Shown in pieces: positions 24,662 to 36,650 of a DNA stretch of 39,756 bases. The DNA is from Methanobacteriota archaeon (lineage in GTDB: Archaea; Thermoplasmatota; Thermoplasmata; RBG-16-68-12): NCBI GenBank assembly GCA_005878955.1, contig VBMI01000094.1, forward strand, positions 1 to 39,756. The letters run 5' to 3'. The notes beneath the pieces were generated by a model. The model saw nothing but the letters and a program-made list of their open reading frames with translations. It was not told the DNA's origin and did not search any database. The position numbers and the translations under genes were made by a program. Each line of letters starts with the position of its first letter. The first letter of the stretch is position 1.

Positions 24662-24954
24662 CTCCGTTCGAGCTCGGGCTCCTCTCCCTGGTGGGCGCCG
24701 TCTTCGTCGTCGCCGTCGTCGCCCTCCGGTTCCCGCGCGGGCGGCGGGAGTGGCCGCTGGACGCCCGCCAGACCGCCTGGCTCCTGATCAGCGGGCTCAC
24801 GGGCATCCTCGTGTTCGCGCTCCTGTATCTCGCGACGCGGGAGGTGCGGTGGCCCGCCGCCCCGACGACGACGTTCGTCGCGGTGTCAGCCGCCCTCGCG
24901 CTCCTCCTCGGGGTCGCGCTCTTCCTCCCCCAGGGCCTTCGCGCGCGACCGTGA
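24658..24954 (+). CDS. Small three-helix membrane protein
   Basis: This 98-residue protein is almost entirely hydrophobic. Three predicted helices lie at about 5-21, 39-58 and 69-88, with a basic loop (RFPRGRREWPLDARQ) between the first two, so the loop is probably cytoplasmic. No family is recognised. GTG 24658-24660 overlaps the stop of the AAA gene (GTGA), so it is the last gene of the operon and probably coupled to it. A role as accessory subunit of the membrane AAA complex is inference from position. Its last 69 bases overlap the end of the convergent beta-helix gene. Confidence 0.68.
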   Translation: MTPFELGLLSLVGAVFVVAVVALRFPRGRREWPLDARQTAWLLISGLTGILVFALLYLATREVRWPAAPTTTFVAVSAALALLLGVALFLPQGLRARP

Positions 24955-26874
24955 GCGCCACGCGACCGCGAAGAGGCCCACGGCGAGGACGACGAGGGAC
25001 GAGACCCAGACCGGGGTGAGGTCCACCCGCCGCGGGGCGCTCTCCATGTCGAACGTAAAGACGTACGTGCTCGGGAGCGGGTTCCCCGCGAGGTCCGTGG
25101 CGGTGTCCCGCACCTCGACGAAGTACGTCGCCCCGTGCTCCGCGTCCAAGATGGCGAAGCTCACCTCCCGGCCGTCCGCGCTCCACTCGAAGTCCCCGAC
25201 GCGGTACCCGAGGACGGTGACCGCCGCCTCCGTCGTCGACGGGTCCATCGCCTCGCTGAACGTGACCGTCACGCGGGAGCCGAAGCGCACCCCGACGGAG
25301 TCTGCCAGCGGGCTCGTGCCGACGACCCGCGGCGGCGTGCGGTCCGTCTCGTAGAAGATCTCCGGATGCGTCGCGGACATGTTCACGATCCGGGGCGTGT
25401 CGCGGAACGCCCGCGAGGGATGGTCGACGGAGACCTCCACGATGGAGAGGGTGAGGGTGGGCGGGGCCGTCGGATCGGAGACGAGGCTGAGGACCCCGTA
25501 CGCGGCGGGGGTCCACCGGAGCCAGCCGTCCACGTCTGTCATCCCGCCCGCGATCTCCGCGCCGTCCTGCGTGATGCGGACGTGGGCACCCGCGATGGGC
25601 GCGGAGGCCTCCGAGAGGGTCCTCACGTGCAGGAAGTTCTCCACGGTGAGGGAGGACCGCTGGTCCGTGAGGTTCACCGCGTCGAGCCGGAGGTCCGTGT
25701 TCAGGGAGACGACGTTCGACACGCTCGTGAGGAGGAACTCGTTGCTCGAGTTCGCGAGGGTCGCGTTCACGACCGTGAGCGAGCTGTTCGCGGCGTACAC
25801 GAGGGCTCGGTTGTTCTGGAGGCGCGGGCCCGCCACGGTGACGTTCACGGCGTCGTAGAAGGTGAGGAGCCCCTGCTCCGTCGCGTTCCCGGTGAAGCCC
25901 GCCGAGCGGCCGGAGTCCAGGTCGACGCCCGCGAGGACCGCGTCGCGCGTCCGGTACCGGTACAGGGTGTCCAGCGGGACGCCGTTCACGACGTTCCCCC
26001 GGGAGAGGCCGAGGGTCCGCTTCGAGTCGTACGGGATGTCCACCCCGACCCCGTTGTTCCGGAACACGTTGTCCCGCAGGGTCGCGGCCGCGTCGAACAG
26101 GAGGAGCCCGTCCCCGCCGTAGTTCGCGAGGCCGTTCCCCTCGACCGTGTTGTTCGCAAGAACGGGGTCGGCGCTCAGGACGAGGACGCCCACCCACCCG
26201 TTCCGGATCGAGTTGTTCTCGATGCGGGGCCGCCCGCCGAGGTACACATAGATTCCGAAGTAGTTGTCCACGAGCGTGTTGTTCCGGATCACCGGGTCGG
26301 CTTCCTGGGTGATGATCCCGACGCGCTGGTTGAACAGCTGCGTCTGGATGTGATTGTTCTCGATGAGGGGCGCGGCGTTCGGGCCGATGACCTGGATCGC
26401 CCGGAGGCCGCTCTCGAGGATCGTGTTGTTCGCGATCTTCGGGGAACACTGTCGGACGTCGATCGTCGTGGATCCCCAGGAGAACTCGGTGTATTCGATG
26501 TCGGAGCCGTCGGAGCCGAGGAGCTGGATCGAGACCCAGTCGTTCCGGTCCGGGAAGGGGTCGTTGGAGGTGAACATGACATGAAGGTCCGGACGCCCGA
26601 TGGAGAGGATTCGGCCGTACACGAGGATTGAGTGCGAGGCGGGCGGGGCGGTGTCGAAGCGGACTTGCACACCGGGGTCCACCGTAAGGGTCACACCCTG
26701 CGGAACCGTGACGTCCCCCGTCACGATGAACGGGCTGCCGGAGACGGTCCACGTCGTGTTCCCGGGCAACGTCCCGGACACGAGGGTCGGGCCCGCCACC
26801 GCGGTCCGGGACCAGGGGGCGGGTAAGAAGACGAGGACGAGAACGATGAGGAGAATGACCGCCCCGCGCCGCAC
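24886..26874 (-). CDS. Cell-surface parallel beta-helix protein with SbsA-like domain and C-terminal anchor
   Basis: This 662-residue protein has a signal peptide at 1-28. A right-handed beta-helix (NosD/pectate-lyase-like) at about 40-290 shows the repeated rungs IENNHIQT, IRNNTLVDNYFG, IENNSIRNG, LANNTVEGNG and LRDNVFRNNGVG. Further beta-domains follow, then an SbsA/Big-5-like Ig domain at about 515-610 (PPRVVGTSPLADSVGV, VTFSEAMDPST). A membrane helix lies at about 621-639, and the 23-residue charged tail is cytoplasmic. Such surface proteins bind or modify polysaccharides, but no catalytic residues stand out. TATA GATAAATAG at 26897-26905 puts transcription at GTG 26874, so it is leaderless. 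Many N-x-S/T sequons suggest glycosylation outside the cell. Confidence 0.86.
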   Translation of the reverse strand: MRRGAVILLIVLVLVFLPAPWSRTAVAGPTLVSGTLPGNTTWTVSGSPFIVTGDVTVPQGVTLTVDPGVQVRFDTAPPASHSILVYGRILSIGRPDLHVMFTSNDPFPDRNDWVSIQLLGSDGSDIEYTEFSWGSTTIDVRQCSPKIANNTILESGLRAIQVIGPNAAPLIENNHIQTQLFNQRVGIITQEADPVIRNNTLVDNYFGIYVYLGGRPRIENNSIRNGWVGVLVLSADPVLANNTVEGNGLANYGGDGLLLFDAAATLRDNVFRNNGVGVDIPYDSKRTLGLSRGNVVNGVPLDTLYRYRTRDAVLAGVDLDSGRSAGFTGNATEQGLLTFYDAVNVTVAGPRLQNNRALVYAANSSLTVVNATLANSSNEFLLTSVSNVVSLNTDLRLDAVNLTDQRSSLTVENFLHVRTLSEASAPIAGAHVRITQDGAEIAGGMTDVDGWLRWTPAAYGVLSLVSDPTAPPTLTLSIVEVSVDHPSRAFRDTPRIVNMSATHPEIFYETDRTPPRVVGTSPLADSVGVRFGSRVTVTFSEAMDPSTTEAAVTVLGYRVGDFEWSADGREVSFAILDAEHGATYFVEVRDTATDLAGNPLPSTYVFTFDMESAPRRVDLTPVWVSSLVVLAVGLFAVAWRSRSRAKALGEEERDPEEEREGG

Positions 26875-27121: not shown

Positions 27122-30004
27122 ATGAGGAAGCCGGTGCGAGTGGCAATAGCGCTGTCGGCCATCGCCCTCGTCGCGATCATGCTGGCCGTGCCGTTCTATA
27201 CGTCTACGGCCGCCGCGATCGACTCGACGGGGACGCGGGACACGGTGATCTACACGGTCGGCGGCCAGGACCAGATGAAGACGAGGAACTGGCTGCCGTC
27301 GATCGCGAATGACGTGTGGACGTCGGACGTCCTCGGCCGAGTGTACGACACGGTGGGCCAGACGGATCCGGTGACGGACGAGCTCGTGCCCTACATCATC
27401 AAGGGCATCGACGTCGACGGGGACGGCACGTTCCAGCGAGCGGAGAAGGGCGGATTCCTGAAGGGCGCCTGCCCGCTGCCGTGCGCGGACGAAGTGACGT
27501 GGCGCAGGACGGTCGTCGCGTACTACGACTTCAACGGGGTCCTCTACCATGACAACGTCCAAGCCGACATCGGGGACGTGATGTTCAACTACGTCATGCA
27601 GTCGATCAACCCGCGGTTCAACACGGACCTGCGGGTGTTGTGGGATGACCCGAACGCGGCGACCTTCCCCGCGAGCCGCCACCTGAACATCGACTTCCTT
27701 GGCTGCGGCACCGCGATCAGCTGGGACTTGGCCGGGACCCTTCCAGGGGACAACAACCTACGGTGCGCCCTGCGATACCGGCTCCAGGACGATTTCGCGC
27801 TGTTCTACCGAAACACGCTGGTGGGGCTCACCCTGTTCCCGCGGCACGAGTTCGAGGGGACGGGCGCCGGGCACCACCCTGGTGGTGCGGACTTCGGATT
27901 CGCGATCTACCCGGTGACCTGGCCCGTTGCGAGCAAGCGCCTGCAGGGCATCCCGACGGACGAGACCGCGATTGCGCCATTCAACTACCCTGCTGCAGAG
28001 GGCTGGCTGATGACGGACGCGGACGTGATCGGGACCGGGGCGTTCCGGTTCGGGACGTGGTCCTTCGGCGCGTTCGCGCGGGTCGACAAGTACACGAAGT
28101 ACTTCTACGGAGTGGACCCGAACAACCCCGCCGTCGTGCTCGACCCGGACCTGCCGACGTACATCCACCAACCCTTCGTCGACGCGATCCTATTCAAGAT
28201 CTACCGGACGACGCAGCTCGGCGTGCTCGCGCTCGAGTCGGGCGAGATCGATTTCTATCACTGGGCGCTGCCGCCGGAGTTCGTGCCGGACCTCCTGAAC
28301 GACCCGAACGTGCGGGTCTGGGCGAACGCGGAGCCCGGGTTCTTCTACATGGCCTACAACATGCGGCGCCAGCCCTTCGGGTACACGACGTGGCCGCCTC
28401 CGGCGGGCATGGACCGGGATCCAACGGTCGACACCGGACTTCCGTTCCGCCAGGCGTTCGCGCACCTGATTGACAAGGCGCAAATCGTGCGCGTCCTCCT
28501 GCAGAACTACGGCGTGATCGCGGACGGCACGGTGAGCCCCGCGAACACGTTCTGGTACAACGGCACGCTGCCGAAGTACGCGTACAGCACGGCCCAGGCC
28601 GCGGCGATTCTGGACAACCAGGGCTGGGTCGATACGAACGGGAACGGCTGGCGGGAGTTCCCCCGGCTCGGGGACAGCCAGTTCGACATCCTGACGCCGC
28701 AGGCGGATTACGATCCGATCCGGGCCTCCGCGGGCGCGATGATTGCGGCCGCGGCCCAGTCGATCGGCGTGAACGTGAGGTCGGCACCGACCGCGTTTGG
28801 CGCGATCACGAGCGCGATCGGTGCCGGGGACTTCGACATGTTCATCCTCGGCTGGCGGATTAGCGGCACGGACCCGGACTACCTGTTCAGCTTCTTCCAC
28901 AGTTCGAACGCGAACGGTGGGCAGAACTATCCGGGCTTCTACGACTCGGCGTTCGATGCGACGATCTCCGCGAGCCGGAAGGAGCTCGACGAGAGCAAGC
29001 GCCAGCAGCAGATCAAGTACGCCCAGGGCATCCTCGCGCAGCGGCTGCCGTACGACGTTCTGTACTACCGGACGAACATCGAGGCGGAGCGGAACGACCG
29101 GTTCGTGAACTACTCCGTGTCGTCGGGGACGATATGGAACTTCTGGTCGGTGATGAGCATCCAGCGGCCGACGAACCTGTTCATCCATGCGGTCCCCTCG
29201 GCGCCCTCCGCAATCGTGGAGGGCGGGTCGGCGGCCGTCAGCGTCTCGGTCCGGGACCAGGACGGTGCGGCGGTGAGCGGGGCGACGGTGGCGTTGTCCG
29301 TCATCTCAGGCAGCGGGACGTTCAGCGGCGGTCCGTGCACCGGGACGAACACCTGTACCGGCGTAACAACGGCCACGGGGACGTTCTCCGCGACGTACAC
29401 GGCGCCCACGCCCGTGCCCGCGGCGCCGGACGTTGAAATCACCGTCACGGCGCAGGCCGCGGGCTACCCGATCGATCAGCGGAAGGCGGTCGTCACGATC
29501 TTCGCGCTCGGCACGCAGTTCCTGTCGATCACCCCGCGCCTGAACACGGGCGACCTCGTCCCCACGGGCGAGAGTCTGGTGTTCGGCGTGGACGTGAGGG
29601 ACCAGGACGGGAACTCGGCTCCGAGCTCGGACGTGACGATGACGGTGTCGCCCTCGGGGCCCACCTTGTCTCCAAGCTGCACGACGGTGAGCCCGTGCCC
29701 GGCCTCCACGGTCCAATCGGGCGTGGTGTTCCAGGCACCGAGCAGCATCTCGGCGAGCCCGACGGTGTTCCACGTCACGGCGCGCGCGACGGGCACTGGC
29801 ACGGCCGCGACGTCGACGTTCGACTTCACGGTCGTCCAGCTGACGAACACGGTCACGTGCCCGGATGGGCGTGTGGTGCCCGCGGGGACGTCCTGCCAGG
29901 GTGGCCCGCTCGTGCCCGCGCTTGACGTGCTGCCCGTCCTCGCGACGATTGCGGCCGCCGCCGTGATCTATGGCATCGTGCGGAACCGGAAGAAGGGGGC
30001 CTAG
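27122..30004 (+). CDS. dppA: Membrane-anchored peptide-binding protein of the ABC transporter (DppA/OppA-like)
   Basis: This 960-residue protein has a signal peptide at 1-33 and an SBP_bac_5 peptide-binding domain at about 40-680 (VWTSDVLGRVYDTVG, FRQAFAHLIDKAQIV, DPDYLFSFFHSSNANGG). Two Ig-like domains follow at about 690-905 (DQDGAAVSGATVALSVI and DVRDQDGNSAPSSDVTM). A C-terminal membrane helix at about 933-953 precedes RNRKKGA. Bacterial homologues are soluble or lipid-anchored; here the protein is held by its C-terminus, with the Ig domains as a stalk. ATG 27122 is chosen for the GGAGG ribosome site seven bases upstream; an earlier in-frame ATG at 27062 lacks one. A palindromic terminator overlaps the stop and may keep expression higher than that of the permeases. 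Confidence 0.93.
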   Translation: MRKPVRVAIALSAIALVAIMLAVPFYTSTAAAIDSTGTRDTVIYTVGGQDQMKTRNWLPSIANDVWTSDVLGRVYDTVGQTDPVTDELVPYIIKGIDVDGDGTFQRAEKGGFLKGACPLPCADEVTWRRTVVAYYDFNGVLYHDNVQADIGDVMFNYVMQSINPRFNTDLRVLWDDPNAATFPASRHLNIDFLGCGTAISWDLAGTLPGDNNLRCALRYRLQDDFALFYRNTLVGLTLFPRHEFEGTGAGHHPGGADFGFAIYPVTWPVASKRLQGIPTDETAIAPFNYPAAEGWLMTDADVIGTGAFRFGTWSFGAFARVDKYTKYFYGVDPNNPAVVLDPDLPTYIHQPFVDAILFKIYRTTQLGVLALESGEIDFYHWALPPEFVPDLLNDPNVRVWANAEPGFFYMAYNMRRQPFGYTTWPPPAGMDRDPTVDTGLPFRQAFAHLIDKAQIVRVLLQNYGVIADGTVSPANTFWYNGTLPKYAYSTAQAAAILDNQGWVDTNGNGWREFPRLGDSQFDILTPQADYDPIRASAGAMIAAAAQSIGVNVRSAPTAFGAITSAIGAGDFDMFILGWRISGTDPDYLFSFFHSSNANGGQNYPGFYDSAFDATISASRKELDESKRQQQIKYAQGILAQRLPYDVLYYRTNIEAERNDRFVNYSVSSGTIWNFWSVMSIQRPTNLFIHAVPSAPSAIVEGGSAAVSVSVRDQDGAAVSGATVALSVISGSGTFSGGPCTGTNTCTGVTTATGTFSATYTAPTPVPAAPDVEITVTAQAAGYPIDQRKAVVTIFALGTQFLSITPRLNTGDLVPTGESLVFGVDVRDQDGNSAPSSDVTMTVSPSGPTLSPSCTTVSPCPASTVQSGVVFQAPSSISASPTVFHVTARATGTGTAATSTFDFTVVQLTNTVTCPDGRVVPAGTSCQGGPLVPALDVLPVLATIAAAAVIYGIVRNRKKGA

Positions 30005-30079: not shown

Positions 30080-31750
30080 ATGAGGCTCAGGACGTACCTG
30101 ATCCGAAGGGCGATTCACACGGTGATCACGCTACTCGTGGTCCTCGTGCTGCTGTTCGTGATCTTCCGTCTGATGCCCGGCGACCCGACACGGTTCTTCA
30201 TCGCGCCGGGCCAACCTCCTCAGGTGCGGGACGAGATCTGCGTGTCGTTCGGCCTGTGCAAATGGGTGAGCGCCCCCGGGAACGGGTATCAGGGGCAGAT
30301 CCAGGCAGGCGCGGACGGCGCGTACAATGTGACCGCCTTCGTGAACGACACGGCGGGCACTCGGTGTGGAGCGAATCCTTGCAACTACACCTTCGTGTAC
30401 AACAACTTCCCCCTTGAAAGGGACCAGAGGAATGGCCATCCCGGGGTCGTCGTGACCGAGGTGACGCTTGCGAAGGCGGGTGGGATTGCCAGGCCCAGTC
30501 TCCCGGATGCGGCCCCGGGAGACACGATTACCGTCAGGGCGAAGATAGTCATCGATTCGATGCCGGCGTCCTCCCTTAGGGTGTTGAAGCCGGATAACGT
30601 GACGTGGATTTTCCTTGGCGCGCCACAGACGGATTCGACGCCCAGGTACTTTTACTGGACCTTCGTCGCCCCCGACCGTGGAACCTACTGGGGCGTGATC
30701 ACTGCCCGGAACGCAACGCTCACGGAGAACTTCACGTTCGGCTTCGCGGCGAGCCCCCCCGTCCCTGGCTTCGACCTCGTCGAGGGGAAGTTCTACGGGA
30801 TCCGACCGTCCTTCCCGCAGAACGTCGCTGTCCTCAGCGTGAACGTCACGGCCCGCGCGGCGCCAATCCGGAACGTGACCGCGAACCTCGTGTCGCCCGG
30901 CGGCTTCCCGCAGGTCGACATCCACCTCCGCCACCCGCTCCAGGTCGCCCGGAGGAGCCTCGCCGAGCAGTTCGTGCTCTACTTCATCAACATGCTCTCG
31001 GGGAACTTCGGCAACTCGTTCTACACGAAGCGGCCGGTGATGGACGAGATCTCGGTGCGGATCGGGCCGACGCTCCTCCTGTTCGGGTCCGCGGTCGTCA
31101 TCTCGTACCTCCTCGGCGTCCTCCTCGGCGCGATCCTTGCGTGGCGCCGCGGGAGCAAGATGGAGCTGTCGGCAATCGTCGTCAGCCTGTTCTTCTATTC
31201 CATGCCCGTCTTCTGGTTCGGACTCGTCCTCCTCTGGTTCTTCGCGTTCGACCGACGCTGGTTCCCGCTCGGCGGCATCGGCGGGTTCGACCCGAAGACC
31301 GGCTTGGCCCTAAACGGCTTCGCGTTGGTCGGCGACATCCTGTGGCACATGGCCCTCCCGCTGGGGAACCTCGTGATTCTGGGCCTCGCGGGACACGTCC
31401 TGCTGATGCGGAACAGCATGCTCGAGGTAATGGGCGAGGACTACATTCTCACCGCGAAGGCGAAGGGGCTCAGCGAGCGGAGGATTATGTACAGGCACGC
31501 TGCCCGGAACGCCCTCCTTCCCGTCGTGACGGCGTTAGCGATTTCCATCGGCGGGGTGATTAGCGGAGGGGTTCTCACGGAGACGATCTTCTCGTGGCCC
31601 GGGATGGGCTTCTACCTCGTGGCCGCGACCCTCCAGCAGGACTATCCTTCCGTGCAGGCGGCGTTCTTCATCCTCGCGGTCCTCACGATCCTCGCGAACA
31701 CTGTCGCGGACGTTCTATATGCATACCTAGACCCCCGCGTGAGGCTCTGA
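30080..31750 (+). CDS. dppB: Peptide ABC transporter permease (DppB/OppB-like) with large ectodomain insertion
   Basis: This 556-residue membrane protein is a DppB-type permease; typical family length is 310-340. The first helix lies at about 11-31 and is followed by the family motif MPGDPTRFF. From about 58 to 290 there is an inserted extracellular region with Ig-like strands (ITVRAKIVIDSM, RYFYWTFVAPDRGTYWGVI, VAVLSVNVTARA) and several N-glycosylation sequons. The canonical core resumes with LAEQFVLYFINMLSGNFG and five more helices, including the EAA-loop segment YILTAKAKGLSERRIMYRHA that docks the ATPases. The C-terminus YAYLDPRVRL is typical. The next gene starts one base after the stop. 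The pore is unchanged, so transport is expected; the inserted domain may contact the anchored binding protein. Confidence 0.93.
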   Translation: MRLRTYLIRRAIHTVITLLVVLVLLFVIFRLMPGDPTRFFIAPGQPPQVRDEICVSFGLCKWVSAPGNGYQGQIQAGADGAYNVTAFVNDTAGTRCGANPCNYTFVYNNFPLERDQRNGHPGVVVTEVTLAKAGGIARPSLPDAAPGDTITVRAKIVIDSMPASSLRVLKPDNVTWIFLGAPQTDSTPRYFYWTFVAPDRGTYWGVITARNATLTENFTFGFAASPPVPGFDLVEGKFYGIRPSFPQNVAVLSVNVTARAAPIRNVTANLVSPGGFPQVDIHLRHPLQVARRSLAEQFVLYFINMLSGNFGNSFYTKRPVMDEISVRIGPTLLLFGSAVVISYLLGVLLGAILAWRRGSKMELSAIVVSLFFYSMPVFWFGLVLLWFFAFDRRWFPLGGIGGFDPKTGLALNGFALVGDILWHMALPLGNLVILGLAGHVLLMRNSMLEVMGEDYILTAKAKGLSERRIMYRHAARNALLPVVTALAISIGGVISGGVLTETIFSWPGMGFYLVAATLQQDYPSVQAAFFILAVLTILANTVADVLYAYLDPRVRL

Positions 31751-31751
31751 G

Positions 31752-34166
31752 ATGCTCTCGCGCCGGCGCTTCCGCGACAAGTACGACAGCTGGAAGAAGC
31801 TCTTCCTCCAGAACTGGACCCTGTTCAAGGCGAGCCGGATCGGCGTCGTCGGGCTCGCGATCATGATCGCGTTCCTGCTCATCGCGTTCACCGTGCCGTT
31901 CATCGGCCTTCGGGACCCCCTTTACTGGCTTGCGCCGGAGTCCGACACGATCTCCGTCCGGGAGTTCTGGGGCAAGCTGGTTACCCCGAGTTCCACGCTC
32001 TACGGATCCAATGCCTCCGTGGACCACACGATTGGCTTCCGGATTAAGCCCGAAGCAGGCGATGCCCGTGCGGATCGGATTTACATCGCGGAAGGGCGGT
32101 ACCTCTTCGCCGTGAGCACGCTGGACTCCCAGGACGCTTGGACCGACGTCCGGTTCGGGTGCGAGTACCCGTACGCATTCAAGGCCGACGACACGATTAC
32201 GGTCGATCCGATCGTCATAAACTACGGCGATTCCCGGGACCCGATGGTGGCGAACATCACTCTGATGTTCGGCACGCAGAACGGGACGGTCTACGTGATG
32301 CAGGACAACGTTGGGAACGCGCGGTGCCCCGTCCCCCTGACTCGAAACCTCGGGTCTCCGATTACTGGGATGGCCGCGTTCAACGGAGACCAGTACTTCG
32401 GAGTGACGTCCAGGGATCGGTTCGTCGTTGGGACCCAGGACGGCCGCCTCTTCGGGTTCACCGTCAACGGAACGGCGGGGGGATTCTACCGGGAGCTCTG
32501 GAACGACACTATCAACCCGTCCGGCGCGCCCACCCCTCCCGCGATCCATCTCGCCGGCGCGATGATCAAGGCGGGTGACTCGGTCCCCCAGTTCGCGCCG
32601 TGTTTCTACCGCTCGGGGGTCGGAGACGACACGCAGAACGGGCGGTCGTTCGTCCTGGGGACCTCGGACGGGTACGTCGTGTCCCTCTGGACCTCCAACG
32701 GGACGCTCCAGTGGGAGAACCCGCTCAGCCAGACGACCTGGTCCAGTTCCCCGGTCCTCCGCATCGGGGCCGAACTTCCGGGGACGCCCCCACTCGTATA
32801 TGCAGCGACGGACGAATCGAAGGTGTTCGTCCTCAACGCGGACACGGGGAAACCCCTCCCCTCGTGGGTCGCGGCGGCCGGTGACATTTCGGGAGGTCTT
32901 CGAATCGTCTATCCGCGAGTCATCGGCCAACCAGATACCGGCGTCTTGTACACGCCCGCAGTGTTCGGGGCGAACATCTTCATCACCTCGAGCAGTGGGT
33001 GGTTGTACAACATCAACCGGGACCCGATCCTCGGGGCGAGCAACCGGATCACGCTGGACTCCGGAGAGGTCGCGTGGGCGTTCCATGACGAGACGATCCG
33101 GCAGAACGCGACCCTCAAGACGTACTTCCGGTCTGGTCCCCACATCTTCGACAACAATAATTACGTCGTCGCGGGCGGCGGATATAACAACGGCACGACG
33201 AACCCTACCGATGACCTCGGGATTGTATATGTGCTCGACACCGCCTCGGGCCGCTTGACGTGGAAGCGGACATTCCCGTACGCGATACTCTCGACGCCGG
33301 TCGCATGGAGGGACCCGGGGGGCGCCCAGCAGCACACGTACCCAGCCGTCTGGTTCGGGACCCGACGGGGCGACTTCTACTCGTACAGCATCGCGGGCGC
33401 GTACCTCGCGCCCCTCCCTCCGAGTTGGGCGCACACTTGTCCTCCTGGTTCGCCGTCCGATTGCGTGCCCGGCCGGTACCCGAGCGGGAACTTCTACATC
33501 CTCGGGACGGACGCCCGCGGGCGGGACATCTTCAGCCAGCTCCTCTGGGGGAGCCGGATCGCGCTCCTCGTCGGGTTTGCGTCCGCGTTCTTCACGATTG
33601 CGATCGGCGTGATCGTGGGCCTCGTCGCGGGGTACTTGGGCGGCCGCGTCGAGTCGATCCTGATGCGGTTCACGGACGTCATCCTCGTGATACCCGGGCT
33701 CCCGCTCGTGATCATCCTCGCCGCCGTCCTCGGGGCGGGGGTCGGGAACATCATCCTCGTGATCGCGATCGTCGGATGGCCGGGCGTCGCGCGCGTGATC
33801 CGCGCGGAGGTGCTCTCCCTGAAGGAGCGCCCGTTCATCGACTCGGCGCGCGTGACCGGCGCGAGCAACGTGCGGATCATGTTCCGCCACATCGCGCCGA
33901 ACGTCGCCCCCCTCGCGTTCCTGTACATGACGTTCGCGGTGAGCGGGGCGATCCTCACGGAGGCGGCGCTGAGCTTCATCGGCCTCGGGGACGTGAACAC
34001 GATCAGCTGGGGGATCATGCTCCAGGACGTGTCCCAGTCGAAGGCCCTCACCGCGTGGTGGTGGCTGCTCCCTCCCGGCCTCGCGATCACGATGATCTCG
34101 CTCGCGTTCTTCCTCGTGGGGCGGGCGTTCGACGAGATCGTGAACCCGAGGTTGAGGAAACGGTGA
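31752..34166 (+). CDS. dppC: Peptide ABC transporter permease (DppC/OppC-like) with inserted PQQ-type beta-propeller
   Basis: This 804-residue protein is a DppC-type permease; typical length is about 290-300. The N-terminal helix (30-53) ends at FIGLRDPLYWLAP. The core resumes near residue 576 with NFYILGTDARGRDIFSQLLW, the normal continuation of OppC proteins. It then runs through five helices and the coupling segment FIDSARVTGASNVRIMFRHI. Between them are about 520 extracellular residues with at least seven blade-like repeats: VVGTQDGRLFGFTV, VLGTSDGYVVSLWTSNGTLQW, VFVLNADTGKPLPSW, IFITSSSGWLYNI, VYVLDTASGRLTWKRTF and AVWFGTRRGDFYSYS. These match PQQ/quinoprotein-type propeller blades. The reading frame is continuous, so it is not an assembly join. 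GTG of the ATPase gene overlaps its stop. Confidence 0.93.
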   Translation: MLSRRRFRDKYDSWKKLFLQNWTLFKASRIGVVGLAIMIAFLLIAFTVPFIGLRDPLYWLAPESDTISVREFWGKLVTPSSTLYGSNASVDHTIGFRIKPEAGDARADRIYIAEGRYLFAVSTLDSQDAWTDVRFGCEYPYAFKADDTITVDPIVINYGDSRDPMVANITLMFGTQNGTVYVMQDNVGNARCPVPLTRNLGSPITGMAAFNGDQYFGVTSRDRFVVGTQDGRLFGFTVNGTAGGFYRELWNDTINPSGAPTPPAIHLAGAMIKAGDSVPQFAPCFYRSGVGDDTQNGRSFVLGTSDGYVVSLWTSNGTLQWENPLSQTTWSSSPVLRIGAELPGTPPLVYAATDESKVFVLNADTGKPLPSWVAAAGDISGGLRIVYPRVIGQPDTGVLYTPAVFGANIFITSSSGWLYNINRDPILGASNRITLDSGEVAWAFHDETIRQNATLKTYFRSGPHIFDNNNYVVAGGGYNNGTTNPTDDLGIVYVLDTASGRLTWKRTFPYAILSTPVAWRDPGGAQQHTYPAVWFGTRRGDFYSYSIAGAYLAPLPPSWAHTCPPGSPSDCVPGRYPSGNFYILGTDARGRDIFSQLLWGSRIALLVGFASAFFTIAIGVIVGLVAGYLGGRVESILMRFTDVILVIPGLPLVIILAAVLGAGVGNIILVIAIVGWPGVARVIRAEVLSLKERPFIDSARVTGASNVRIMFRHIAPNVAPLAFLYMTFAVSGAILTEAALSFIGLGDVNTISWGIMLQDVSQSKALTAWWWLLPPGLAITMISLAFFLVGRAFDEIVNPRLRKR

Positions 34167-35458
34167 ACGACGGGAACGGCGGGCCGCTGCTCGAGGTGAA
34201 GAACCTCCGGGTCTACTTCCGGATCATGAAGGGCACCGTGAAGGCCGTCGACGGCGTGTCGTTCGACCTGCGGAAGGGGGAGACGATGGGCCTCGTGGGG
34301 GAGAGCGGGTGCGGGAAGACGACGACCGCGTACGCGGTCACCCGGCTGCTCCCGAACAACGGCGAGATCGTCGGCGGGGAGATCCTGTTCAACGGGATGC
34401 TCGTCGGGCGCGCCCACCTGCCCGCGGAACTCAGCGAGGCCCTGAAGCGCCCGACGTGGTTCGAGGAGATCCAGTCGATCCTCGCGGAGGAGGAGGCCGA
34501 ACTCGCCACCGCGGCGTCGGGCGGGGCGGTGATCGAGGCGCGGGAGGCCCTCGAGCACGAGGCGGAGCTCCTCCAGGCCGTCCGCGCGATCCTCCCCCCG
34601 GGGGTGCAGCCGACCCCCGAGATGAAGACCGCCATCGAGGAGCTCGTGGACACGGACCTGAAGGCCTGGGGGTCCGGCCGCCGCCGGAGGCGAATCGAGC
34701 GGGAGATCGAGAGCGGGATCAACGCGATCCGCTGGTCCCAGATCTCGATGATTTTCCAGAGCGCGATGAACGCGTTCAACCCCGTCTACCGCGTCGGGGA
34801 CCAGATCGCGGAGGCCCTCCTGACGCACTTCCCCGACATGACGAAGGACCAGGCCCACGAGCGGGTCCTCAAGCTGTTCGACCTCGTCGGGATCGACCGG
34901 AGCCGGGTGGACGGCTACCCGCACGAGTTCAGCGGCGGAATGCGGCAGCGGTCGATGATCGCGATGGCCCTCGCGTGCAACCCGCAGCTCCTGATCGCGG
35001 ACGAGCCCACGACCGCGCTCGACGTGATCATGCAGGACCGCATCCTCGGGGAGATCCGGGACCTCCAGCGGACGCTGAACATCGCGATGATCATCATCAC
35101 GCACGACATCAGCGTCGTGGCGGAGGTCGCGGAGAAGATCGGGATCATGTACGGGGGGAAGCTCTTCGAGTACGGGAACATCCGGGAGGTGTTCGAGCGG
35201 CCCGCGAACCCGTACACGCTCGGCCTGATGTCCGCGTTCCCGAGCATCAAGGGGGACCGGAAGCGGCTCCGCGCGATCCCCGGGAGCCCCCCGGACCTCA
35301 GCGACCCGCCGTCCGGGTGCCGGTTCCACCCGCGGTGCCGATTCGCCCAGGAGGTGTGCCGCGCGAAGGACCCGCCGATCGTCGAGGTCGCGCCCGGCCA
35401 CCTGTCCCTCTGCCACTTCGCGAAGGAGATCTACGAGGGCACGCTGAGGGAGAGCTGA
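34163..35458 (+). CDS. dppD: Peptide ABC transporter ATPase (DppD-like) with helical insertion
   Basis: This 431-residue cytoplasmic ATPase has Walker A GESGCGKTT with Lys52, a Q-loop at SMIFQ199, signature EFSGGMRQRS, Walker B LLIADEPTTALD and switch His in IITHDIS. The C-terminal oligopeptide-transporter region carries a Cys cluster, CRFHPRC with later C residues, which in Dpp/Opp ATPases binds an Fe-S cluster. About 105 extra residues (85-190), rich in Glu, Ala and Arg and probably a helical hairpin, lie between Walker A and the Q-loop, where homologues have a short lever segment. The GTG start overlaps the permease stop (GTGA). The product pairs with DppF to power import through DppB and DppC. 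Confidence 0.95.
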   Translation: MNDGNGGPLLEVKNLRVYFRIMKGTVKAVDGVSFDLRKGETMGLVGESGCGKTTTAYAVTRLLPNNGEIVGGEILFNGMLVGRAHLPAELSEALKRPTWFEEIQSILAEEEAELATAASGGAVIEAREALEHEAELLQAVRAILPPGVQPTPEMKTAIEELVDTDLKAWGSGRRRRRIEREIESGINAIRWSQISMIFQSAMNAFNPVYRVGDQIAEALLTHFPDMTKDQAHERVLKLFDLVGIDRSRVDGYPHEFSGGMRQRSMIAMALACNPQLLIADEPTTALDVIMQDRILGEIRDLQRTLNIAMIIITHDISVVAEVAEKIGIMYGGKLFEYGNIREVFERPANPYTLGLMSAFPSIKGDRKRLRAIPGSPPDLSDPPSGCRFHPRCRFAQEVCRAKDPPIVEVAPGHLSLCHFAKEIYEGTLRES

Positions 35459-35459
35459 G

Positions 35460-36650
35460 ATGATCACGGAGTCCGCGGCGCCGGAGGCCGCGACCGGGGA
35501 CGTCGTCTACCGCGTCGAGAACCTCGTGAAGCTGTTCCCGATCAAGGCGGGGTTCCTCGGGTCCCTTTTCGGGCCGGAGCAGTACGTCCACGCGGTCGAC
35601 GGCGTGAGCTTCGACATCCGGGAGGGGGAGATCCTCGGGGTCGTCGGGGAGAGCGGGTGCGGGAAGACGACGACGGGCCGCCTCCTCGTGCGGCTCGAGA
35701 CGCCGACGTCCGGCCACATGTACTTCCGCGGGACGGACATCGCGACCCTGCGGGGGCCGGAGCTGAGGGAGTTCCGGAGGAAGGTCCAGATGATCTTCCA
35801 GGACCCGTACGAGTCCCTGAACCCGCGGTTCACCGTGTTCGCCACGGTCTCCGAGCCGCTCATCGTCCACGGCGTCGGCGAGACGTACGACGAGCGGGAG
35901 GAGATGGTCGCGCGCGCCCTCGAGAGCGCGGAGCTGAAGCCGGCGGAGGAGTACATGTACCGGTACCCCCACGAGCTCAGCGGGGGGCAGCGGCAGCGGG
36001 TCGCAATCGCCCGCGCGCTCGTCCTGCGCCCGGAGTTCGTCGTGGCGGACGAGCCCGTGTCGATGCTCGACGTCTCGATCCGCGCGGGGATCATGAACCT
36101 CATGCTGAACCTGCGGCAGCAGTACGAGATCCCGTTCATGTTCATCTCCCACGACGTCTCCGTCACGCGGTACATGTCCCACCGCATCGCGGTGATGTAC
36201 CTGGGGAACATCGTGGAGCTCGCGAGCGCGGAGGAGGTGATCAAGAACCCGATGCACCCGTACACGGAGGCCCTCCTGAGCGCGGTGCCCGTGCCGGACC
36301 CGAAGGCGAGGCACGGGCGGGTGGAGATCAAGGGCGAGCTCCCGAGCCCGATCAACGTGCCGAGCGGGTGCACGTTCCACCCGCGGTGCCTGTACCGGCG
36401 GGAGATCTGCCGGGAGGTGAAGCCCGTGCTCCGGGAGGTCGTCCCCGGGCACTGGGTCCAGTGCCACTTCGCGGGGGAGATCAAGACCCGGAAGCCGGAC
36501 GACATCCCGATCGAGGAGGGCACGTGCGACGTGTGCCACGAGTACGTGACGCCGGAGATGCCGTCGCGGACGTGCAACTGCCCGCGGATCTACCACGAGG
36601 AGCACGCCGTGCAGCTCGGCGCGTGCCCGATCTGCAAGAAGCGGTTCTGA
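35460..36650 (+). CDS. dppF: Peptide ABC transporter ATPase (DppF-like) with RING-like zinc-binding tail
   Basis: This 396-residue ATPase has Walker A GESGCGKTT, Q-loop QMIFQDPYESLNP, signature ELSGGQRQRVAIARAL, Walker B VVADEPVSMLDVS and switch His FISHDVS. A Fe-S-type Cys set in the oligopeptide domain (CTFHPRC, REIC, later C) matches the family. After the normal end near residue 345 there is an added segment. Its eight ordered ligands are Cys356, Cys359, Cys372, Cys374, His379, His382, Cys389 and Cys392, with the spacing of a cross-brace RING-like or double zinc finger (RTCNCPRIYHEEHA, CPICKKRF). The start ATG 35460 follows the dppD stop by one base. The tail might recruit a partner or sense redox or zinc (inference). 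Confidence 0.94.
   Translation: MITESAAPEAATGDVVYRVENLVKLFPIKAGFLGSLFGPEQYVHAVDGVSFDIREGEILGVVGESGCGKTTTGRLLVRLETPTSGHMYFRGTDIATLRGPELREFRRKVQMIFQDPYESLNPRFTVFATVSEPLIVHGVGETYDEREEMVARALESAELKPAEEYMYRYPHELSGGQRQRVAIARALVLRPEFVVADEPVSMLDVSIRAGIMNLMLNLRQQYEIPFMFISHDVSVTRYMSHRIAVMYLGNIVELASAEEVIKNPMHPYTEALLSAVPVPDPKARHGRVEIKGELPSPINVPSGCTFHPRCLYRREICREVKPVLREVVPGHWVQCHFAGEIKTRKPDDIPIEEGTCDVCHEYVTPEMPSRTCNCPRIYHEEHAVQLGACPICKKRF

Follow-up and report, generated by a model that had tools for sequence, protein, structure and literature searches.

We analyzed a 39,756-nucleotide stretch of archaeal DNA, referred to here in its entirety as the window, which carries on its + strand an operon encoding a binding protein, the permeases DppB and DppC, and two ATPases. 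The operon combines an SBP_bac_5 protein and a DppC, both recognized by Pfam, with two ATPases recognized by their motifs, and it encodes an ABC importer of the peptide (SBP_bac_5) type from a Thermoplasmata-like archaeon, with peptide as the probable substrate. Its features are as follows:

27122–30004, + strand: tethered substrate-binding protein, SBP_bac_5, DppA-like (Pfam SBP_bac_5 E = 9e-36, weak Big_1)
29213–29899, + strand: Ig-like stalk of the binding protein (weak Big_1 match; ~265-aa extension found in most propeller-bearing systems)
about 29906–29974, + strand: TM anchor of the binding protein, directly after the stalk
30080–31750, + strand: DppB/OppB-type permease with ectodomain (BPD_transp_1 E = 2.8e-40; NCBIfam Opp/Dpp permease B models; PDB 8z1v DppB E = 5e-49)
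30185–30256, + strand: scoop-motif region of DppB, immediately before the insert (alignment with insert-free DppB)
30257–30949, + strand: 231-residue ectodomain insert of DppB, aa 60–290 (gap against insert-free relatives; alignments A1–A4)
30950–31747, + strand: conserved DppB core, TM2–TM6 (Pfam, NCBIfam and PDB chain alignments)
31752–34166, + strand: DppC/OppC-type permease, 804 aa (BPD_transp_1 E = 8e-27)
31932–33485, + strand: PQQ/BamB-like propeller insert of DppC, aa ~61–578 (PQQ_2 E = 1.9e-8; profile matches to other clades)
34163–35458, + strand: DppD-type ATPase (Walker and ABC signature motifs read from the sequence)
35460–36650, + strand: DppF-type ATPase with Cys-rich tail (read from the sequence)

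The binding protein consists of a signal region, the SBP fold, two Ig-like stalk domains and a C-terminal TM anchor. The C-terminal tail of the second ATPase (35460–36650) is Cys-rich and zinc-ribbon-like, CDVCHEYVTPEMPSRTCNCPRIYHEEHAVQLGACPICKKRF, and a NosD-like beta-helix protein that includes a Big_5 domain is encoded beside the operon on the opposite strand (24886–26874, − strand).

DppB is encoded by a single uninterrupted ORF of 556 aa. Its family assignment is secure, as PF00528 (E = 2.8e-40) and PF19300 (E = 1.2e-5) both exceeded their gathering scores, with BPD_transp_1_N covering aa 5–63 and BPD_transp_1 aa 346–555. NCBIfam permease models and PDB DppB/OppB chains align mainly from aa ~284–297 onward and otherwise only to short pieces of TM1, and VIA matches the permease part of an AF2 model to solved DppB structures with Z values of up to 22. 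None of the NCBIfam equivalogs for DppB, OppB and NikB reached its cut-off; the highest score, 220 bits for Opp2B, falls short of the required 350. This leaves the protein without a specific substrate assignment, and DppB is used here as a family name only.

Position, Conservation and Predicted Fold of the DppB Insert

The 231 additional residues of the window DppB span aa 60–290 in the alignment with L136 (30257–30949) and aa 62–292 in that with L133 (30263–30955). Outside the insert, the protein is 63–64% identical to the insert-free DppB of L131, L133 and L135. In two of the four pairwise comparisons, those with L131 and L135, a chance match breaks the gap in two, and checking of the ends by eye (FGL-DKPMWEQF versus FGL-CKW...SLAEQF) left the boundary unchanged. 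The first-pass annotation had described an extra domain of about 230 residues between helix 1 and the core, at 30250–30955, and was accurate in this. It had also described the insert as an outward-facing ectodomain in a loop equivalent to that holding the DppC propeller, which our analyses support for the loop, since the propeller likewise lies in the TM1–TM2 loop, between TM1 and the core. For sidedness the argument comes from E. coli, whose DppB scoop motif is periplasmic, enters the DppA cleft and seals the cavity (PMC12136057); an insert that starts where this motif ends would therefore face the extracellular side. All eight N-glycosylation sequons of DppB fall in the insert and none in the core, and the DppC propeller has another eight, but they are a weak sign of sidedness because the binding-protein fold, which is also outside, has just two in 655 residues. 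Another DppC in the source genome (L070, 5322–7058, contig C123), like that of L072 (2145–3770), stands beside a plain DppB and has a pair of additional TM helices at its N terminus, along with a loop insert of ~200 residues.

Two other species of the genus share the insert at 54–64% identity, and it is also present in additional families within the order. Its dN/dS is 0.21–0.35, compared to 0.08–0.16 for the core, and on the strength of the former we conclude that the insert is translated and evolves under purifying selection. Together with these ratios, the intact ORFs found in several species rule out chance and an assembly or frame artefact. Conservation within the insert is concentrated at its base (A65, P66, G67, G80, Y82, H285 and P286), the remainder being variable. 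In comparisons with the sister species, the insert's identity (55–61%) is similar to that of the propeller (52–55%) and the stalk (59–62%), and these values are well below those of the permease cores (87–96%) and the SBP fold (78%).

These data bear on the reading that the insert is a neutral decoration, gained by chance in a tolerant loop and kept by descent. The loop does repeatedly take unrelated inserts, including one in a Bacteroidia DppB (L029) whose DppC partner lacks a propeller, and the L070 paralogue of DppC in the source genome has a loop insert of its own. However, purifying selection, the conserved base residues and the retention of the insert throughout a clade of 22 or more members all speak against neutrality, which we consider quite improbable and the least likely of the explanations weighed here.

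The fold of the insert was modeled with AF2 from a 29-sequence alignment (A3) as a single chain, at a mean pLDDT of 74; a model from eight sequences had a pLDDT of 53 and was set aside. Within the insert, pLDDT is mostly 80–92, with a few loops at 66–71, and three elements are predicted:

30257–30406, + strand: first half of the outer beta-domain, aa 60–109 (AF2 strands, pLDDT ~71–88)
30443–30757, + strand: complete Ig/E-set (filamin-like) domain, aa 122–226 (AF2 pLDDT ~82–92; VIA-align to filamin C)
30824–30952, + strand: second half of the outer beta-domain, aa 249–291 (AF2 strands, pLDDT ~70–88)

The central element aligns with filamin C in VIA-align over 98 residues (Z 10.8, rmsd 2.5), and the strands on either side of it probably pair as a second, split beta-domain, so that the insert is predicted to be one Ig/E-set domain lodged in a split beta-domain. 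The likeness to filamin and E-set Ig-like domains is one of fold, applies to the central domain only and implies no shared function; the structural match list for the insert consists mostly of other Ig folds. No named Pfam Ig family reached its gathering score in the window insert, the only match being Big_13 (E = 0.2), and the inserts of relatives match Pfam Y_Y_Y (L128) or InlK_D3 (L009). Searching PDB sequences with a profile of the insert returned only weak scores, to designed Cake proteins and to assorted Ig proteins, and MalF-P2 was not among the matches.

Distribution and Order of Appearance of the Two Ectodomains

DppB–DppC pairs were gathered from the source organism's own family and order, from 300 genomes of its class, and from matches in other phyla. 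Pairs in the 95-row tree of DppC cores were classified by insert length (DppC pre-core of at least 450; DppB of at least 190; contig-edge cases set by hand), which gave 29 pairs with both insertions, 24 with the propeller only, none with the DppB insert only and 42 with neither, L151 and the L147 group being counted as propeller-type by length rather than by sequence and L029 landing in the last category under these cut-offs. Propellers related to that of the window DppC were recognized by Pfam in L131, L135, L136, L124, L128, L113 and L009, and by profile comparison in the 139, 142, 61 and 162 groups (probability 88–98%).

The first-pass annotation had proposed that the two insertions are linked, and had named genomes with one insertion and not the other as evidence against this. 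Such cases exist, with 24 of the 53 propeller-type DppC proteins standing beside a plain DppB, and obligate pairing is thereby refuted. The clearest counterexamples are L131, L133 and L135, which combine a related DppC propeller with a DppB of 320–328 aa; among the systems with a plain DppB, the propeller is recognizable by Pfam in L131, L135 and L136 and by profile in L133. At least seven genomes (G018, G046, G074, G044, G032, G063 and G054) hold both kinds of system. What stands of the proposed link is that, within the archaeal class, DppB inserts occur only beside a propeller-type DppC, with none in the 42 propeller-less pairs. Outside the class, a loop insert of ~120 residues is present in the Bacteroidia DppB L029, whose DppC partner has no propeller. 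A class-wide search with an insert-free model listed matches that are nearly uniform at ~300–350 codons, a model of this kind favoring such genes.

DppB length alone was rejected as a sign of the insert. The DppB proteins of L065 (3962–5119), L066 (5515–6705) and L067 (6514–7704) are long through ~60–70 extra residues between TM3 and TM4, which look like two added TM helices, and the long DppB of L071 probably reflects an early ORF start; none of these was counted.

Several unusual permeases were also seen. In L009 (9726–12941), a kelch propeller (~aa 260–500) is nested in the PQQ-like propeller region of DppC; this kelch-in-PQQ arrangement is also found in L010, L011 and perhaps L110, L009 alone having been scanned. 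L143 (3042–6515) is a DppB–DppC fusion in one ORF of 1157 aa that retains both ectodomains, an L124-like insert in the DppB loop and a propeller-like one in DppC. In another genome, DppB and DppC share one frame of 1698 aa (L092, 1501 onward; L115, 2601–7697), whose DppB end looks frameshifted and may be a sequencing error.

A tree of the joined DppB and DppC cores, rooted on propeller-less relatives, has one propeller clade of 45 rows (support 100/100). The earliest branch within it (L131, L133, L135 and L136) lacks a DppB insert and is split from the other 41 rows with support of 96/86; a clade of 22 rows with DppB inserts (96/91) includes the window, and a separate gain of a DppB insert lies in L147–L149. 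Presence of the insert changes twice on this tree and its type four times. By profile comparison, the inserts of the window, the L009 group, L075, L113, L114, L128 and the ~375-aa forms (L118–L134) are related, and those of L122/L123, L124 and L147–L149 are not recognizably related to them. These results demonstrate that the propeller came first and that the DppB site was filled later, at least twice, by four mutually unrecognizable types at one site. As the same loop was used by four unrelated-looking types, it is the site that is favored and not one sequence. The order also suggests that the DppB insert may depend on the propeller; since its presence changes only twice on the tree, this signal is weak and we claim nesting only.

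The first-pass annotation had read the two ectodomains as a joint extracellular gate or vestibule in which DppB insert and DppC propeller bind each other. Their equivalent loops on two pseudosymmetric subunits, the restriction of DppB inserts in the class to propeller backgrounds and the presence of both ectodomains in the L143 fusion are consistent with such a gate. Nevertheless, the 24 propeller-type systems without a DppB insert include the closest insert-free relatives, the type of the DppB insert changes while the DppC propeller stays recognizably related, and with two presence changes the nesting may be a historical accident. We therefore regard direct binding of the two as unlikely, whereas a looser functional link between them is plausible.

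Proposed Role of the Insert and Comparison with Known Systems

How archaeal membrane-tethered binding proteins meet their translocators is poorly known. Here the binding protein is tethered by its C-terminal helix on the Ig-like stalk, and the TM1–TM2 loop ectodomains of both permeases stand where the translocator meets it. We propose that the DppB insert serves as an extracellular arm for the tethered binding protein, which it would guide to its place over the pore, or cap or clamp there, with the DppC propeller on the opposite side. The maltose system offers a parallel. The P2 loop of MalF is topologically equivalent to the loop that holds the insert, as TM3 of MalF corresponds to TM1 of six-helix subunits; to our knowledge, its partner MalG has no domain comparable to P2. 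MalE is contacted by MalF-P2 (residues 91–271), and has been reported to be touched by loops from MalF and MalG alike (PMC3150292).

That the DppB insert is a MalF-P2-like accessory module for docking or capping the tethered binding protein is the reading we prefer, tentatively and at slightly less than an even chance. The insert lies directly after the scoop motif, it has a conserved base and a variable remainder, as expected of an anchored module, its center is a predicted Ig/E-set domain, and the insert as a whole shares a high rate of divergence with the propeller and the stalk. In addition, one loop was used for all four types, and within the class on propeller backgrounds only. An insert that is later, optional and repeatedly reinvented suggests help with docking, and is not required for the propeller to exist. 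Fast divergence, however, would also fit a spacer, a glycan shield or some other module without conserved contacts.

The insert is evidently unnecessary for basic function, because propeller-type systems without it are common, and the tether does not need it either, because L131, L135 and L136 have the same stalked, tethered binding protein. A correlation between stalk and DppB insert was looked for and rejected on the same three insert-free systems: the C-terminal extension of the binding protein is ~245–290 aa in most propeller-bearing systems, whether the DppB insert is present or absent, and 343 aa in L124. The binding proteins of L061, L063, L064 and L067 have C-terminal extensions of ~940–990 aa.

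Alternatively, the ectodomains could be surface spacers or anchors that bind the S-layer or surface glycoproteins, set distance or act as a shield, independently of the transport cycle. Ig-like, kelch and PQQ domains are typical surface modules, and the eight sequons in each of insert and propeller, the fast divergence and the unrelated folds at one site all agree with such a role. It is harder to reconcile with the fact that, in both permeases, the domains were inserted precisely in the loop where the binding protein docks and not at a terminus, and the sequons are again a poor guide given their scarcity in the binding-protein fold. We find a spacer role doubtful. Similarly doubtful is a broader version of the docking reading, in which the ancestral DppC propeller and DppB modules grafted later and repeatedly after the scoop motif would form a two-sided extracellular platform. 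These exchangeable modules, whose folds would be unrelated (Ig-like, perhaps beta-helix-like and others), would together with the propeller receive the stalked binding protein and control which peptides or partner proteins get to the pore.

A literature search of incomplete coverage did not find such ectodomains described on Dpp permeases. Plain permeases, permeases with the propeller only, and permeases with the propeller and unrelated DppB modules, sometimes as paralogs in one genome, form a natural series that would allow the role of permease ectodomains to be tested comparatively. Repeated grafting after the scoop motif marks a site in Opp/Dpp importers where extra domains are tolerated and perhaps advantageous.

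Among known systems, the OppABCD and DppABCD of M. tuberculosis (8j5q and 8wd9) are ABC importers of peptides whose DppB cores are homologous but in which neither permease has an ectodomain insert. E. coli DppB (8z1v–8z1z) is of the same permease family and shares the TM core, and the window insert starts at the end of its scoop motif; however, E. coli has only that motif of ~30 residues there, with no folded ectodomain, and its DppC lacks a propeller. MalF of MalFGK2 differs in permease family, and no sequence similarity of its P2 to the window insert was found. P2 is likewise a folded domain, of ~180 residues, placed in an extracytoplasmic permease loop before the core helices, and it contacts the binding protein.
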